Below, in pieces: positions 6,249 through 25,940 of a stretch of DNA of 64,000 nucleotides (positions are counted from its first letter, which is position 1; each line of letters starts with the position of its first letter). The position numbers and the translations under genes were made by a program. Below the pieces are notes generated by a model. It did no database searches. It saw only the letters and a list, made by a program, of their open reading frames with translations, and was not told the DNA's origin. Source of the stretch: Lactobacillus sp. UCMA15818 (GTDB lineage Bacteria > Bacillota > Bacilli > Lactobacillales > Lactobacillaceae); assembly GCF_030400225.1 (NCBI RefSeq), contig NZ_VJYB01000001.1, positions 434,001 through 498,000 on the forward strand, read 5' to 3'.

Positions 6249-6572
6249 CTAAAGTCCTAAATCTCTTACTGCCTTTTGTCTTTCTTGATAGCTCATGTAT
6301 TGTCCATGTTGTGTAAACATGAATAATTCCATTGCATACCTCAATGAATCACAATTATGCACAATAAAACCACCATTAACAGCAAAGTTATGGTGGTTTT
6401 TTACATACATATCGTATACATCTTCATAGCCTGAAAATTTAATTGATTTGATTTTGTTTCTTTTTACGGTAGCCGAACGTTGAAGCACATTGTTTTGAGC
6501 ATGTTTTCGCTTTTGAATACTTGTTGACCTTAAATTTGTTTCCACAAATAACGCACACCCTTTCCACATCAT
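6249..6572 (-). CDS. terL: Intein C-half fused to the last 34 residues of terminase large subunit
   Basis: The frame carries an intein C-terminal domain, with block F as YEDVYDMYVKNHHNF and block G ending FIVHN, followed at once by Cys and the extein CDSLRYAMELF. Cys+1 after the terminal His-Asn is exactly what splicing needs. The extein supplies the third terminase nuclease aspartate (NHA-CD-xLRYA once joined). The extein spans 6252-6353 and the recognisable intein half about 6354-6461. In-frame starts are ATG 6572/6569, GTG 6545 and GTG 6488; none has a convincing ribosome site and all overlap the HNH gene. Confidence 0.75.
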   Translation of the reverse strand: MMWKGCALFVETNLRSTSIQKRKHAQNNVLQRSATVKRNKIKSIKFSGYEDVYDMYVKNHHNFAVNGGFIVHNCDSLRYAMELFMFTQHGQYMSYQERQKAVRDLGL

Positions 6573-7074
6573 CTAAATGATGTTCCCTACGCCATCTTGA
6601 TTTGCAGATATTTGAGCAAAAACGATTATGACCGTTATTTTGAGCTATGAATACTTTTCCACAATTTTCGCATATAAACTCCTTTTTGAACCAAAGTTTG
6701 TCTTTCGTTTCTTCAAAGTGTTTTAAATGCCATTTATGCCCTTCACTCGATTTATGCCATTCTGGTGCTTTGGCAATTCCATTCGTATGAAATCTTTCAA
6801 ACCATTCTGGATTATTTTTAGCTCTTTGGGAGCCATGGTAATGTTGATGGTCGTGCATTGACAAACACGCTAAATTTGAAATGTCGTTATTATCTTTGTT
6901 TTTGTCAATGTGATGAATTTCATATCCTTCTGGAATAGGGCCATAATATTTTTCCCAAACATATCGGTGCAATCTTTTGGGTTTCCCCTCTTTTGCTATA
7001 AATTGGTTGCATTGCCAATAACCACTAACTACATCTTTTAAAAACCTATATCCATCAATAATTTGTTCCTGCAT
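6439..7074 (-). CDS. Free-standing HNH homing endonuclease inside the split intein locus
   Basis: A 211-residue protein lying between the two intein halves in a different frame from each. The N-terminal part has an HNH fold: HRYVWEKYYGPIPEGYEIHH, IDKNKDNNDISNL and the closing HDHQHYH. The C-terminal part has two treble-clef-like zinc sites, CENCG...CSNIC and CVICG...CSKQC, likely for DNA binding. Such enzymes cut intein-less alleles and drive copying of the locus. The ATG at 7074 has AAGAAG upstream and an extended -10 (TG-T-TATAAT) at 7097-7105. Its last codons overlap the start of the intein C-half. Confidence 0.85.
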   Translation of the reverse strand: MQEQIIDGYRFLKDVVSGYWQCNQFIAKEGKPKRLHRYVWEKYYGPIPEGYEIHHIDKNKDNNDISNLACLSMHDHQHYHGSQRAKNNPEWFERFHTNGIAKAPEWHKSSEGHKWHLKHFEETKDKLWFKKEFICENCGKVFIAQNNGHNRFCSNICKSRWRREHHLDDVERVCVICGNKFKVNKYSKAKTCSKQCASTFGYRKKKQNQIN

Positions 7075-7096
7075 AAATGATCATCTTCTTAGATAC

Positions 7097-7105
7097 ATTA
7101 TAACA
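7097..7105 (-). promoter_or_regulatory. Extended -10 promoter element for the HNH gene
   Basis: On the minus strand the 52-base spacer between the intein N-half stop and the HNH start contains TGTTATAAT, a perfect extended -10 (TG-N-TATAAT). No good -35 is visible. It would allow the endonuclease to be expressed apart from the late packaging operon. Confidence 0.45.
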
Positions 7106-7126
7106 TGCATAACATATCTTAGAGCA

Positions 7127-8596
7127 TTAAATTGAGATTATCTCATCATTTTCAGTAAGCTCACAAAGCTGTTTCCACCCTGTAGTGGTTAAGAACTTAT
7201 GGTCTTCAGTTGCTTTTATTTTCTTACCGTTTTCAAATTCAATTTCGAAAACAGATGCCCTTTTTCTTGTTAAACAAACGTTGCTAAAATCATCAATTAC
7301 TGATTTTTTATTTCTTTCATCAAAACTAAAGACTTTACCAGATTTACCAACGAGGCTTTTGATTGGCTTGCTTCCTCCGACAGTCTCAATGAGAGTGTCT
7401 CCCGTTAAACATGCATGGTTGTTTGCATCTTCTGGTGTGTTTAACCAATTGCCCTCTTTGTCCTTGTCATAGACATACGTATTAAATTCTTCTAGTAGTC
7501 CTTTAACCCTTGGATGCACCACATACTTATACGACTGCATATATTGAATACCTTGGATAACTGAGTCCTTGCCTTTACCTGATGGTCGAATATTTGGAAT
7601 GTTGAATACTTGTGCTAGTTCAACAATTAAGCGTTGCTCGGCACTATCGGCGATAATTGGTAACCCTATGGCTTTATGCTGCGCCAATGCTTGTGCTATT
7701 GGTTGAGTCAACATCCCTTGTTGATAGAATTCGTCGTAGATGTAAACGATTCTGTTCTTCTGGTCGATTGCAATGAACTCTCCTGCAGTCGGATCATGTT
7801 TGAAACCAAAATCTAAACCAACCGCTTTTGGTAAATTAGCAATCTCTTCATAGCTGAAATCACGTTGTTCAAATAAGCCATCAAATACAAGCCCTTCTGC
7901 AATTCCCCATTCTCCCAAAACTGCCACTCTAGCACGATTAGGATTTCTAACTAACATTTCTTTTAAGCTCTCGACATAAGCATTATCCAAGTGAGAGTTG
8001 TCTTGATATGTTGTAGTCTTAGGTAAAACACTTTTAACGCGCGTTTCTTTATCAAAAAATTCAGCTTTCAGCCAATGCCTATCACTCCAAGGGTTAAATG
8101 TTATGACTGATTGATAAAAGCCGTCATCAGGCAAAACGCCACGCAAAGATTCTTCAACGGTGTTAAAACCTGCTAAGGATTTCAATTCATATGCCTCTTC
8201 ATACCAAACACGACATAAATAGCCAACTGTTGTCTTAATAGATGTTATCTTCAAAGGATTATCCATTCCTCTAAAAATTATCTTTTGACCAGTTGGCTTA
8301 TATATTATTTCCATGGGACTATTTTTAAATTTGAACAAATCATGTATTCCTAAATCATTGGCCACACTCTCTAATGTTGAGAACGTCGAATCTTTGTGAG
8401 TGTTGAAATACTGGCGAACAACAAGCCAATTGACATACTTAAATCTCATCACATCAATCAACACTTTGATAGCTGCTGCATATGATTTTCCAGAACCACG
8501 AGAGCCTTTATAGGCTAGATACCTACTACGATTAACGAACATAGAATAATATGCAGGACTAACCATTTCAGATACGTTTAAATTAATCACTGGCAT
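7127..8596 (-). CDS. terL: Terminase large subunit N-part (395 aa) fused to intein N-half
   Basis: A 489-residue protein. Residues 1-395 are a terminase: Walker A GSRGSGKS at 31-38, Walker B with YEEA near 132-135, and an RNase H-like nuclease with D262 (GLDFGF) and D317 (IIADS). After ANNHA the sequence turns into an intein: Cys396 opens block [10 protein letters not shown] and block B is [11 protein letters not shown]. It ends [11 protein letters not shown] and stop, the usual end of an N-terminal split intein half. The third catalytic Asp is absent from this polypeptide and lies in the downstream piece. The start overlaps terS by 14 bases. Confidence 0.9.
7130..7411 (-). other. Split intein N-half (94 aa) in terminase
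   Basis: Encodes residues 396-489 of the terminase fragment. Cys1 opens block A (CLTGDT), and TxxH in block B (ATEDH) is the catalytic pair for the first N-S acyl shift. The half stops right after the ENDEI segment, where contiguous inteins would carry an endonuclease or linker. Joined with the C-half at about 6354-6461 it would make a mini-intein of roughly 130 residues. Confidence 0.85.
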
Positions 8597-9623: not shown

Positions 9624-9824
9624 CAAAATCACCACCTTAAATTTTATGTAAAAAAAGAACCATCAACTATTTGTTGACAGTTAAATAAATGGACTTCTAC
9701 AAGTTAACCAAACAGTAGAATTGCTGTCATTTTAAATGATGACAAGGTTAACTGACCATTTTATTATCCAGTTAGGAATTGCTCAGACAACTTGTCCTAC
9801 CCCATTATGGGACCCAGCTGATAT

Positions 9825-9907
9825 GGAACTGGCTAGATTCGAACTAGCATAAGCTATTACACTTATTCCCATTGTCGGGCCTTACTAGTATTTCCCGATT
9901 CAGTTCC
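9825..9907 (-). tRNA. tRNA-like element d (non-canonical)
   Basis: The minus strand shows a perfect 7-bp acceptor (GGAACTG / CAGTTCC) and a perfect T-arm, GCTAG-TTCGAAT-CTAGC, placed exactly as in tRNA. The rest is irregular: a 5-bp TCGGG/CCCGA stem with a 14-base loop stands in the D-arm place, and the next stem ATAAG/CTTAT has an 8-base loop. I cannot assign an anticodon. Total 83 bases, the size of a class II tRNA. Confidence 0.4.
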
Positions 9908-10157: not shown

Positions 10158-10177
10158 GCCATATAATAATTACATAA

Positions 10178-10227
10178 GCTAGATAGCGGAATCGAACCGC
10201 TAACCAACCGTACCAACGGTATCTAGT
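10178..10227 (-). tRNA. tRNA-like element a, lacking the anticodon arm
   Basis: A compact 50-base fold. The acceptor is ACTAGAT / ATCTAGC (6 of 7 paired), a D-arm-like CCG-TTGGTA-CGG carries the GG of a D-loop, and a perfect T-arm AGCGG-TTCGATT-CCGCT follows. Only TTGGTT-like linker bases lie where the anticodon arm should be. Confidence 0.4.
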
Positions 10228-10325
10228 TCTCATATTCAGAAAGAGAGTTTTGCCTCATGTCCAACTTGGCATACTATCATTTTATAGGCAAAAGGGTGCT
10301 TAGTTTTGATGAATTTTTCCTTTTC

Positions 10326-11207: not shown

Positions 11208-11900
11208 TCACTCCTTTTCTTCATAGTTTCCTGCAACGTGAATCTTTCTCAGTGTTTCAACATCTAACTTGATACCTGTAACTGGAACGTGATACTTGTA
11301 ACCAAAATTTCTAGCTCCGATTTGTTCGATTTCTCGGTGGTGAGAGCGGCAAAGAGCCATTACATGTCGTTTGGTGTGATCTACGTGTGTTCTATTACCG
11401 CCCATGCCAATTGTTTCTAAATGGTGAATATCCGCGTGTCGTCCACATATTGCGCATTTACGGTGCTTGCAACACAGGTACATGTAATATATCTCGCCCT
11501 TTGGCAAAAGCTCGTAGCCGTCCTTAAAAGGGACTCTGTAATCAAACATGAAGTCGATTACTATTTCTAATAGCTTGTTAGCATCTGAAACAGTATTCTT
11601 TGTATCATCTGCTAGGCTTATCATTCCACCTGCCGTTCTGATGGCATATTGGATATAGAAGTATTCCTTTAACTCTTCGACAGGTTGACCGCTCCAGTTC
11701 CAAATATCACCAATCAAGGCAAAGAATAATGCTCGTTGTTTCGGTCTAGCCTTGCGTGGATCCACAAACTCAATTTTTACAAGAATTCTGCTGAGATTAC
11801 CGTTGTACATTGTTCTAAGTCTTTCGAGACTCACACTTTGCTCAAGTTGGATAACAAGCTGACTCCCTCTGAAATTCCTAACAAATGCAGGTAACCACAT
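11208..11900 (-). CDS. Putative HNHc nuclease, copy 2
   Basis: A 230-residue protein of the phage HNHc nuclease family. The N-terminal half is helical (KARPKQRALFFALIGDIWNW). The C-terminal half has the zinc/HNH core: CCKHRKCAICGRHADIHH, then GNRTHVDHTKRHVMALCRSHH. A paralogue with the same layout lies at 16560-17225. The likely role is processing recombination or replication intermediates (NinG/Rap-like), inferred from context. GGAGG precedes the ATG at 11900. Confidence 0.75.
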   Translation of the reverse strand: MWLPAFVRNFRGSQLVIQLEQSVSLERLRTMYNGNLSRILVKIEFVDPRKARPKQRALFFALIGDIWNWSGQPVEELKEYFYIQYAIRTAGGMISLADDTKNTVSDANKLLEIVIDFMFDYRVPFKDGYELLPKGEIYYMYLCCKHRKCAICGRHADIHHLETIGMGGNRTHVDHTKRHVMALCRSHHREIEQIGARNFGYKYHVPVTGIKLDVETLRKIHVAGNYEEKE

Positions 11901-16162: not shown

Positions 16163-16570
16163 CTAGAACGGTAGATCATCATCTTGAACATCAATCTCTT
16201 TGCCTTTTGAATATTGATTATTCTGCTGGCTGGATTGAGCATTTTGATTACTGCTTTTTGATTCCAAAAATGCAATCTGCAAAATATTGACTTCTGTCGT
16301 ATAAACCTTTTGCCCATTTTTTTCATAACTGCCTGTTCTAATTTCTCCGCTAACCCCTAGTAGGCTTCCTTTATGAAGAAAATTAGCGAATGTTTCTGCA
16401 CGCTTTCCACTTGCTATTAACCGGATAAAATCAGATTCATATTCTCCTTGTTGATTTTTGAAATTTCGCTGAGTTGCAATTGTTGAGGTTGCATAGGCTG
16501 TTCCGCTTGGGCTATATCTGAGTTCAGGGTCTACAACTAAGCGACCAGTTAAGTTCACACTATTCATCAT
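16163..16570 (-). CDS. ssb: Single-stranded DNA-binding protein
   Basis: A 135-residue SSB. The OB-fold occupies residues 1-105, with NLTGRLVVDPELRYSPSG, then DFIRLIASGKRAE and LGVSGEIRTGSY. A short Gln/Ser/Asn linker leads to the acidic tip DDDLPF, which recruits replication and repair partners. The start overlaps the HNHc nuclease end. AGGAAGGA is the ribosome site. It belongs to the recombination/replication set with ERF. Confidence 0.95.
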   Translation of the reverse strand: MMNSVNLTGRLVVDPELRYSPSGTAYATSTIATQRNFKNQQGEYESDFIRLIASGKRAETFANFLHKGSLLGVSGEIRTGSYEKNGQKVYTTEVNILQIAFLESKSSNQNAQSSQQNNQYSKGKEIDVQDDDLPF

Positions 16571-17225
16571 TTTTATCTATCCTTCCTAATTTAAGTTGTC
16601 TTGCTATCTCTTCTGTAACCTTGATTGGTCTAATATGATATTTCTGACAAAACGTCATGATTCCTAGCTTATGCTGTTCTACGTGATGATCTCTGCAAAG
16701 CATCATAATGTGCATTCCAACATGGTTAATCTTGTTTCTGTTACGCCCACTGCCGACTGCTTGATAATGTGCTATATCTGCATGTTTACCGCAGATGACA
16801 CACCTTTTTTGGCAAATACATAACATCTGCTTTGGAAAATCTTGCGGTATGCTCTCCCAAGTTTTCAGTTTGAAAGGTATATCCTCTGTGAACAGATAAT
16901 CTAATATTTCCAATATCATGTAGTTGGCAATTGTCATTGAACAGTTGCTAAGACTAAATTGGTCTACGTTGAAATCACACTTAGTTTTGTACTTAAATCT
17001 CTTTTCCCATTCATCAGGAATATCGCCAGTGTAGTTACACAAATCATTTATCAGCGCCCATATCTTCTTACGTTGATCAGGGCTAATTTGGCGCCCATCT
17101 TGAACACTCAATTCAACTGTCGGCTGTTTATCATTTGCCAGCTTTTGCAGCTTGTACATATCTAGTTCTTCATCTAATTTGATTTCCACTTTGCTGTTTG
17201 AAATCTTGATTAGCTTGCCAAACAT
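16560..17225 (-). CDS. Putative HNHc nuclease, copy 1
   Basis: A 221-residue member of the phage HNHc nuclease family. A helical N-half contains ISPDQRKKIWALINDLCNYTG. The zinc/HNH core is CICQKRCVICGKHADIAHY, then GSGRNRNKINHVGMHIMMLCRDHH. It lies between the ERF annealing protein and SSB, the usual place for this family in lactic phages, and so probably acts in recombination. A second copy is at 11208-11900. Confidence 0.8.
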   Translation of the reverse strand: MFGKLIKISNSKVEIKLDEELDMYKLQKLANDKQPTVELSVQDGRQISPDQRKKIWALINDLCNYTGDIPDEWEKRFKYKTKCDFNVDQFSLSNCSMTIANYMILEILDYLFTEDIPFKLKTWESIPQDFPKQMLCICQKRCVICGKHADIAHYQAVGSGRNRNKINHVGMHIMMLCRDHHVEQHKLGIMTFCQKYHIRPIKVTEEIARQLKLGRIDKNDE

Positions 17226-24167: not shown

Positions 24168-24289
24168 TTAACACTTTAGGCGAACATACGTGCGTATTTA
24201 ATAACTAAGAATACGCAATAATAAGTAAATATTGCTTTTTTATAATGCAAATAGTATTGATATGTGTAACAGAAGGAGGAAATACACAA

Positions 24290-25411
24290 ATGTGGTATGA
24301 GAAGCTTGCTGAAAAAAAGTTCAAATTTATAGAGCGGTATAAAGATCCTTATACGGATAAATACGTGCGTGTATCTGTTTTGATGAACAGTAACTCAACT
24401 CATGCAGTTAAGCAAGCTCAGCAGACACTTGATAGAAAAATCAGTAAAAAGTTGCACCAACATTCTCAGAAAGTTACAGAAATTACAATCGGTGAATTAA
24501 TTAAGGAATGGCTTGCACTTTATAAAAAAAGAGTACGCAATTCAACGTATATGTCTGCTGTTTATAATTTACATACTTTTTCTGATAAAATTAACAATGA
24601 AATTGTGGTTTCTAAGATAGACTCAAGGCTCATTAAACGGGTTCTTGAGAGCATGATCTATGATGATGAGCTGTCTAATAAATATGTATCAATAGTTAAG
24701 TCGAGGCTTAACAAGCTATTTAAATATGCAATCTCGCAAAATTACGCAAAAAATAATCCAGTTGAAGATTTAGAAATATCTTTTAAAAATAATGAGTCAT
24801 CAAATACTAAGAATAAGTTTCTAGATAGTGATGAGCTTGCTATGCTTTTAGAATATACCTATCACAGAAACGCTATGTACGGTTATTTATTTGAATGGCT
24901 ATATTTGACCGGCATGCGTGCTGGGGAAGCTCTAGCGTTAAATAAGAGGGATATTTTCAACGACAAAGGAGTATACTATGTTGATATTAACGGGACACTA
25001 GATTATCATGGATTAAAAATCAGTGATCAGAAAAAAACCAAGGTAACGAAAACGGCAGCAGGAATGAGAACTATCTCTTTACCCAACAAGGCGGTTGAGA
25101 TATACAAAAAACTCTGCTCACTTAACTCTGCAAGTGATTATCTATTTGAAACATCTAATCAAACGCCTTTAAGCATTTCGGCAATAAATACTTTTTTAAG
25201 AAAAGCTAAATTGGAACTAAAAATAAATAAGCCACTCTCAAGTCACATTTTTAGACACACGCATATTTCTAAACTTGCAGAAATTGGAACACCCCTTTAT
25301 GTAATCCAAGAAAGAGTCGGACATGAAAGTAGCAAGATCACTTCTAAAATATATTTGCACGTCACTCAAAATGCACAGAAAAAACTTAGAAATGACCTCG
25401 ACCAACTCTAG
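24290..25411 (+). CDS. int: Phage integrase, tyrosine recombinase
   Basis: A 373-residue protein from the ATG at 24290 (MWYEKLAEKKFKF), chosen because AGGAGG lies 10 bases upstream. Order: an arm-binding N-domain (residues about 1-55), a SAM-like core-binding domain (about 65-165) and the catalytic domain. The active-site set is complete: R210 (TGMRAGEAL), H319 and R322 (HIFRHTH), H345 (GHESSK) and Y355 (SKIYLHV). It integrates and excises the prophage and lies at the phage end, as usual next to attP. Confidence 0.95.
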   Translation: MWYEKLAEKKFKFIERYKDPYTDKYVRVSVLMNSNSTHAVKQAQQTLDRKISKKLHQHSQKVTEITIGELIKEWLALYKKRVRNSTYMSAVYNLHTFSDKINNEIVVSKIDSRLIKRVLESMIYDDELSNKYVSIVKSRLNKLFKYAISQNYAKNNPVEDLEISFKNNESSNTKNKFLDSDELAMLLEYTYHRNAMYGYLFEWLYLTGMRAGEALALNKRDIFNDKGVYYVDINGTLDYHGLKISDQKKTKVTKTAAGMRTISLPNKAVEIYKKLCSLNSASDYLFETSNQTPLSISAINTFLRKAKLELKINKPLSSHIFRHTHISKLAEIGTPLYVIQERVGHESSKITSKIYLHVTQNAQKKLRNDLDQL

Positions 25412-25519: not shown

Positions 25520-25867
25520 TTAACGACGTCTTTCAGGAATACGAGCTGCTTTACCATGTAATGCACGCAAATAATACAACTTAGCACGACGTACACGTCC
25601 TTGACGAATTACTTCAATCTTTTCAACACGTGGTGTGTGAACTGGGAATGTACGTTCAACACCAATTCCACTACTAATCTTACGAACTGTATAAGTTTCG
25701 CTGACACCTTCACCACGGCGTTTGATAACTACACCTTCAAAAATCTGGATACGTTCACGTGTACCTTCAACGATTCGAGCATGAACACGAACAGTATCTC
25801 CAGGACGGAAATCCGGAATATCGCTACGCAACTGAGATTCTGTAATTTTTTTGATTAATGGGTTCAT
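25520..25867 (-). CDS. rplS: 50S ribosomal protein L19
   Basis: A 115-residue protein from the ATG at 25867 ([13 protein letters not shown]); the frame is open further upstream but the GGAAG site and family length fix this start. Conserved segments [26 protein letters not shown] and [18 protein letters not shown] are all present. L19 lies at the 30S-50S interface. It is separated from trmD by its own promoter and a leader RNA. Confidence 0.97.
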
Positions 25868-25940
25868 TTTATTTCTTCCTTTCGCCAACATTCTTGTCTC
25901 TCAACAGCGGAATATCGTTAATGTGGCATATAGCCGTCAA
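25868..25940 (-). promoter_or_regulatory. L19 leader RNA (rplS 5' leader)
   Basis: The minus-strand leader contains TTCCGCTGTTGAGAGACAAG before the ribosome site, resembling the L19 leader motif known upstream of rplS in Firmicutes and thought to be an autoregulatory L19 binding site. Recognised from memory of the motif, not by a model search. Confidence 0.5.

Follow-up and report, generated by a model that had tools for sequence, protein, structure and literature searches.

A Terminase Gene Divided by a Putative Split Intein in a Lactobacillus Prophage and Its Relation to Dual-Coded HNH/Intein Genes

A terL Gene in Three Reading Frames

We analyzed a 64,000-nucleotide (nt) stretch of the Lactobacillus sp. 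UCMA15818 genome (contig NZ_VJYB01000001.1, positions 434,001 to 498,000), hereafter the window, in which the prophage gene for the large terminase subunit (terL) is interrupted by coding sequences of an intein and of an HNH endonuclease. A first-pass annotation had read the locus as TerL residues 1–395 running into the N-half of an intein (IntN) and a stop, followed by an HNH gene in a second frame and by an intein C-half (IntC) with further TerL residues in a third, and the coordinates and frames of this layout proved right (table 1). The three open reading frames (ORFs) lie on the minus strand in three different frames, and, as judged from frames and stops, the two intein halves sit on separate ORFs. 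The HNH gene, which had been placed between the halves, does lie between IntN and IntC (7074..6439), but its 3′ end overlaps the C-half ORF by 134 nt (6439–6572), the C-half being read in the HNH +1 frame.

Hidden Markov models (HMMs) of inteins recognized both halves, as had been proposed: the intein_Nterm model (TIGR01445) matched residues 396–470, and both this model and intein_Cterm (TIGR01443) exceeded their own cut-offs. With Intein_splicing (PF14890), the N-half scored above the cut-off and the C-half (2.5e-7) below it; these two intein pieces were the only PF14890 matches in the window genome. The hallmarks of a class 1 split intein are present, namely, Cys as residue 1 (CLTGDT, at 396), the block-B T..H (ATEDH), and the terminal His-Asn followed by Cys+1 (FIVHN/C). 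The host protein was assigned to the PBSX-type TerLs, since the Terminase_3 ATPase and 3C nuclease domains were both matched. The break adjoins the Asp of the DxxRY motif, which, as in other members of the family, would be the third nuclease Asp of TerL and catalytic.

Table 1. Features of the divided terL locus (aa, amino acids; positions are those of the window)
Feature	Position	Strand	Evidence and remarks
TerL-N plus IntN ORF, 489 aa	8596..7127	-	TerL residues 1–395, then 94 intein aa; stop 7127–7129
TerL N-extein, residues 1–395	7412..8596	-	Terminase_3 2e-51, Terminase_3C 5.7e-22, TIGR01547; ATPase domain and most of nuclease domain
IntN, 94 aa, CLTGDT...ATEDH	7130..7411	-	TIGR01445 1.6e-11, PF14890 9.7e-10
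TGTTATAAT, resembling an extended -10 promoter element, in the gap from the IntN stop to the HNH start	7097..7105	-	TGnTATAAT motif scan
HNH endonuclease gene, 211 aa	6442..7074	-	stop 6439–6441; PF13392 (HNH_3) 1.4e-18, phrog_15471 5.8e-63; C-terminal Cys-rich knuckles
C-half ORF, 107 aa	6572..6249	-	phrog_28563 match begins at residue 1; candidate starts ATG 6572, GTG 6545, GTG 6488
IntC core, 38 aa, end FIVHN	6354..6467	-	TIGR01443 2.7e-4; borders from a C-half HMM built here, the window sequence being among its seeds
TerL C-extein, 34 aa, opens Cys+1-Asp (DxxRY motif)	6252..6353	-	stop 6249–6251; residues 2–34 match phiJL-1 TerL 408–440 ungapped, 1.9e-11

In separate alignments, residues 4–395 of the N-extein matched residues 15–406 of phiJL-1 TerL without a gap (75% identity), and the C-extein match was likewise ungapped. 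The exteins therefore abut on phiJL-1 TerL, with Cys+1 standing for residue 407, and the joined product would have 395 + 34 = 429 residues; the expectation that the joined exteins meet without a gap on an intact TerL was thus borne out. The R3.3 and LLC-1 TerLs showed the same adjacency, with one gap each, inside the N-part. An intact second terL did not turn up in the window genome (46 contigs), where the only match to the TerL protein (E ≤ 0.001) and the only match to Terminase_3 (E ≤ 0.01) were both the split gene; a second Terminase_3 gene was rejected at that threshold, and other terminase families were not searched there.

Related Loci and the Integrity of the Split Gene

The window was compared with related loci in a survey of 127, which comprised the window itself, 19 chosen annotated phage records, 5 genomes, 80 viral stretches (the best 80 of at least 571 confirmed ones), and 22 contigs from one genome-contig scan; proportions within it are not population frequencies. 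In a search of 397 genomes of the window's family (Lactobacillaceae) for the HNH gene, 6 had a match, the window's own included. The loci were classified by HMMs of IntN, IntC, and HNH, with the window among the seeds, into 28 fractured loci with the HNH gene in sense orientation (25 distinct by IntN, window included), 2 fractured loci with HNH antisense, 52 nested loci, 34 intein-free loci, 7 with a single half, 1 with an intein but no HNH, and 3 with neither. The intein without HNH (L016, MW202478) is a continuous mini-intein at the same terL site, where an HNH gene was not detected; in another locus (L126), fractured, about 840 nt separate the IntN stop from the HNH match.

The splicing residues were largely constant across the 75 distinct inteins: residue 1 was Cys in all 75, the final residue was Asn in 73 (the exceptions, L088 and L089, being misplaced HMM ends), and the +1 residue was called as Cys in 65 inteins and as Ser in the other 10. 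The penultimate residue was His in 24 of the 25 inteins of fractured loci, in 27 of the 48 nested ones, and in 1 of the 2 at antisense loci. With a loose DxxRY pattern, the +1 residue lay two codons before the Asp in 42 inteins, one before in 22, one after in 3, and two after in 6; the motif was absent from 2.

Selection on the locus was estimated against the corresponding locus of a genome of the window's family (L022, 69% HNH identity), and the ratios of nonsynonymous to synonymous divergence (dN/dS) were 0.19 for IntN, 0.09 for IntC, and 0.16 for the C-extein. These low values, together with the finding that 28 of the 127 loci (25 distinct, window included) share the layout, indicated that the layout is not due to chance. 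The same split layout occurs in two complete phage records, Brochothrix phage BL3 and Lactobacillus phage CL2, in each of which the split gene was the sole TerL match with each of two TerL families (E ≤ 0.1). BL3 has kept both intein halves while its HNH gene is reduced to a C-terminal remnant; thus, the split has outlived the nuclease there.

These data bear on two readings in which no splicing takes place. The locus could be dead, the terL having been broken by HNH insertion in a packaging-defective prophage remnant, and the decayed HNH gene of BL3 is in keeping with such a history. We regard this as unlikely, since the checked intein residues and both exteins are kept, dN/dS is low on IntN, IntC, and the C-extein, and the layout is common to 25 distinct loci, among them two complete phage records with the split TerL as sole match. 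Alternatively, the 395-residue N-part might work alone as a TerL with the C-half as a relic, which the small size of the C-extein (just 34 aa) would favor; however, this short piece holds the presumably catalytic DxxRY Asp, the dN/dS values of IntC and the C-extein are those of constrained sequences, and all 28 fractured loci have a C-extein whose +1 residue is Cys or Ser, so that this reading appears very improbable.

As a separate observation, the terL of L002 (PV831789, Aeromonas phage AS1) is 73% identical to that of the window and, despite the phage's name, ranks among Lactobacillus phage matches; it carries a different insert in its first half, with a weak group I match (E 0.26).

Related HNH Genes Are Nested in Continuous Inteins at Other Loci

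In the 52 nested loci, IntN and IntC form one unbroken ORF, and the HNH gene lies wholly inside it in another frame. The intein frame was the +1 frame of HNH in 52 of 52 (in L128 the HNH match is a short remnant). Stops in this +1 frame were counted within distinct HNH genes with matches of 450 nt or more, which sets aside copies and shorter matches (among them L001, which is BL3, and L128, both with a short HNH remnant). Because nested loci were defined by an open intein frame, their 0 stops in 48 of 48 genes follow from the definition, and the informative point is that no locus, nested or fractured, had a single stop: fractured genes had 2–17 (mean 9.0, n = 24), and intein-free genes 1–15 (mean 8.2, n = 28). 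Below 42% GC, the counts were 0 in 18 nested, 4–17 in 18 fractured, and 3–15 in 20 intein-free genes. When synonymous codons were shuffled, nested HNH genes acquired a mean of 2.1 stops, compared with 8.8 for fractured ones. The GC content differs (0.47 nested, 0.38 fractured); even so, shuffles of the 18 nested genes with less than 42% GC averaged about 2.8 stops, and thus the nested HNH proteins and their codon use seem to have shifted away from +1 stops. Taken singly, 20 of 48 nested genes fell below P 0.05 in the synonymous shuffles, and codon-position rates gave no clean contrast between nested and other HNHs. The shift away from +1 stops suggests long dual coding of the nested HNH/intein genes.

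An AlphaFold model of one nested intein (L069, 18-row alignment) had a mean predicted local distance difference test score (pLDDT) of 57.9, with high confidence outside residues 94–277. These outer residues correspond to the Hint parts, for which the best PDB matches were the gp41-1, Ssp DnaB, and RecA mini-inteins (E ~1e-6). Within the HNH overlap, residues 94–277 had pLDDT mostly of 30–38, in a thin alignment; this low confidence fits a disordered linker and is no proof of one.

Phase relations connected the fractured with the nested form. The C-half lies in the HNH +1 phase in 25 of 28 fractured loci (22 of 25 distinct), and the N-to-C phase (0/1/2) is random, at 9/7/9 in the 25 distinct loci. 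The random N-to-C phase beside a conserved C-to-HNH phase accords with two polypeptides rather than one precursor, and with a history shared with the nested form. A single precursor, formed by frameshift, bypass, or stop read-through and then spliced in cis, might be suspected from BL3, where the halves are in one frame with two stops between them, and from the continuity of 52 related inteins at the same site. A frameshift or read-through precursor shared by these loci was nevertheless rejected by the random phase, and, with stops in the HNH +1 frame of each of the 24 distinct fractured genes tested, we consider a single precursor very unlikely.

The HNH tree was built by a quick method from 107 rows and should be read with caution, as 40 of its 104 inner branches were under 80; copies, matches shorter than 150 aa, and the rows of L018, L019, L127, L128, L042, and L013 were set aside, and five loci with a single half were given states by hand (L046 and L052 nested; L072, L119, and L121 fractured). 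It required 25 state changes, compared with 48.9 for shuffled labels, so that the states cluster and yet often interchange. One side of the tree held 48 nested, 8 free, and 2 fractured rows; the other had 25 fractured and 18 free rows plus 2 each of the nested, intron-like, and antisense states. As far as sequences tell, we take one HNH/intein cassette to exist in alternative states, fractured and dual-coded, with change possible in either direction.

The HNH Protein and Its Other Carriers

The window HNH protein, modeled in its own frame, reached a mean pLDDT of 94 (26 rows). Its best PDB fold match was I-HmuI (Foldseek E 6.8e-3; none at E ≤ 0.001), to which it was weakly similar in sequence as well (phmmer E 0.017). 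As in HNH homing endonucleases of the I-HmuI type, an HNH_3 domain is combined with C-terminal knuckle appendages; H54, H55, N62, N63, H76, H80, and most knuckle cysteines are invariant in the 26-row alignment, and the Cys-rich knuckles would bind DNA. Two further HNH-type genes lie elsewhere in the prophage on the minus strand, one at 11211–11900 with a PF16784 match and one at 16560–17225 judged by eye from its Cys/His pattern.

A TerL-like ORF with an intact DxxRY motif ends no more than 150 nt from 19 of the 28 distinct intein-free HNH genes (the L039 gene lying on the opposite strand). The other nine comprise two intron-like cases (L005, L024), three about 610 nt after a TerL-like ORF (L030, L109, L123), one about 2.7 kb from such an ORF (L054), two adjoining annotated terminase genes (L010, L011), and one unplaced (L110). 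The two intron-like cases are an Exiguobacterium phage (L005) and a genome of the window's family (L024; also viral contig L153). In both, an insert breaks terL at CACTCGAT, which is read in a different frame in each, only a few codons from the intein site. The two inserts are homologous, as are the flanks of the two loci; each insert contains P1-like ACTCGAT/GTCGAGT as well as GACTA/TAGTC, ends in G, and encloses the HNH gene. Rfam gave nothing above noise (Intron_gpI at E 4 for L005 and no such match for L024), and we read the elements as group-I-like introns. A 14-base scan for further such introns returned 43 stretches, of which only L153 and L168 kept the P1 partner; L153 has the same flanks as L024 and an HNH match. 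In the tree, the L024 HNH grouped with those of the window and L022 (Shimodaira–Hasegawa-like approximate likelihood ratio test 90, not starred), which indicated that close HNH relatives are carried by a split intein in one place and by an intron-like element in another.

With these group-I-like elements carrying the same HNH family, the window interruption might itself be removed as RNA, the intein signatures being incidental. Its junction residues are, however, those conserved in Hint domains, and we give this reading almost no weight. A search for an intron in the window had no Rfam match at gathering and found no intron family at E ≤ 5 over 6252–7500, and that candidate was rejected.

Expression Signals

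Between IntN and HNH, an exact TGnTATAAT element was found in 6 of 23 distinct fractured loci. With at most one mismatch, the motif was present in 12 of 23 fractured loci, where 4.1 were expected, in 9 of 48 nested loci (expectation 3.1), and in 9 of 28 intein-free loci (expectation 4.1). As the motif was picked after inspecting the same gaps, the simulated P values are optimistic; copies and L001, L126, L018, L019, L127, and L128 were set aside in this count. A sigma-70 scan requiring a -35 box did not list TGTTATAAT and found 5 promoters where 5.6 were expected. For the C-half, a GTG within the zinc-knuckle codons was noted as a candidate start; among the genes scored, it occurs in 22 of 25 of the fractured, 17 of 46 of the nested, and 10 of 20 of the free-standing class.

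A Model for the Split terL

Protein trans-splicing is, from the sequence comparisons, the best explanation of the locus. We consider it highly likely that the window holds a fractured terL with a split class-1-type intein that is spliced in trans, that the HNH protein is a homing endonuclease, and that the whole forms one cassette with the dual-coded form. In this model, the prophage terL is broken by the split intein beside the DxxRY aspartate in the TerL nuclease domain, and two polypeptides would be made, TerL(1–395)-IntN and IntC-TerL(34), whose intein halves would come together as a Hint fold and join the exteins in trans into a TerL of 429 residues. The HNH protein would be a homing endonuclease with a translation start, and probably a promoter, separate from those of terL. 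It would cut terL alleles that lack the intein, close to the codons of the insertion site, and HNH and intein may thereby be copied in together; this homing role was assigned from the HNH family, its terL-bound distribution, and the insertion sites. The HNH 3′ end overlaps the C-half in the +1 frame, which is also the phase of the related HNH genes wholly inside continuous TerL inteins.

Several observations weigh against this model. The C-half lies in the +2 phase in 3 of 28 fractured loci (L056, L065, and L084), and the HNH gene is antisense between the two intein halves in L033 and L055, so that the orientation of the nuclease is not fixed. One of the 25 fractured inteins lacks the penultimate His, as do 21 of the 48 nested ones (counting the two misplaced ends) and 1 of the 2 antisense ones. 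Synonymous divergence from L022 was saturated for TerL-N and HNH, and hence no dN/dS was obtained there. The C-half has three candidate starts (table 1), and, in fractured loci, the Shine-Dalgarno energy at the zinc-knuckle GTG showed no significant advantage over free-standing (P 0.14) or nested genes (P 0.14).

More broadly, and with less confidence than in the model for the window, we proposed that a terL-specific HNH lineage probably uses the self-splicing element as an exchangeable vehicle, occurring around one small set of terL codons as a free-standing gene beside terL, in group-I-like introns, in split inteins, and in dual-coded continuous inteins. If so, some 200 codons of the dual-coded intein would be an enforced linker, namely the HNH gene read in another frame, and the shared +1 phase would make the window terL a relative of the dual-coded cassette and offer a concrete route to split inteins. 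In the dual-coded form, about 200 codons would serve two unrelated proteins, in phages or genomes whose hosts span several phyla.

Comparison with Known Systems

Fractured split inteins, TerL inteins, an intron plus nuclease beside terL, and out-of-frame HNHs are each already known. Dassa et al. reportedly described, in 2009, genes fractured at a split intein, with a homing endonuclease gene of EDxHD type lying between the pieces. The first-pass annotation had matched the locus to these fractured genes, and the likeness stands for the layout, in which a host gene is split at the intein and a free-standing nuclease gene lies between the pieces. It does not extend to the nuclease, which is HNH_3 here and reportedly EDxHD in that set; moreover, the host gene here is terL, the HNH gene overlaps the C-half, and the HNH family is also dual-coded in continuous inteins.

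The AceL-TerL, GOS-TerL, and Cat-TerL inteins are naturally split, trans-splicing inteins with Cys+1, which are split after 25, 37, and 30 residues and have C-parts of 104, 115, and 104 residues, respectively (PMC11766414). The window intein is likewise a TerL intein with Cys+1, whereas its split falls after 94 residues and its C-part has 38 or more. Mycobacteriophage TerL inteins occupy seven sites, all placed in the ATPase domain (PMC5050341); they share with ours TerL as preferred host, whereas the window site adjoins the DxxRY Asp of the nuclease domain. ShiLan-type HNHs are hidden out of frame in a phage methylase, where an intein or intron is unsupported (PMC11855218). Here, too, the HNH gene lies inside a host ORF with the other frame kept open, but the nested carrier is a recognizable intein with splice junctions. 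In phage ICP1, terL has an intron and an adjacent T5orf172 endonuclease engaged in "collaborative homing" (PMC10448857), which resembles our loci in the endonuclease beside terL near a self-splicing element and differs in that ours combine HNH with split or continuous inteins instead of T5orf172 with an RNA intron.

Among the papers listed by a literature search and judged by titles and abstract starts, none was recognizable as a report of one HNH family across split inteins, continuous inteins, and introns in terL, or of an intein-dual-coded HNH, although an actinophage-intein preprint ("Non-Canonical Architecture", cited in PMC11855218 for overlapping frames) may hold the nested form. Many terL alleles, whether split, continuous, or empty, occur naturally with a single nuclease family and make the origin of split inteins and intein mobility directly testable. 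In addition, the TerL inteins that lactic acid bacterial phages carry, with their split after about 94 residues, are candidate trans-splicing tools.

Other Features of the Prophage

The ORF at 24245–25411 (plus strand) presumably encodes a phage integrase and the adjoining one at 25520–25891 (minus strand) ribosomal protein L19, and this pair probably marks one end of the prophage. Two tRNA-like sequences (9824–9895 and 10177–10270, minus strand) lie in a 690-nt gap between phage ORFs. ARAGORN called neither at default settings and gave Leu(aag)- and Phe(gaa)-like folds at relaxed ones; these sequences are candidates for degenerate phage tRNAs or tRNA-like RNAs.

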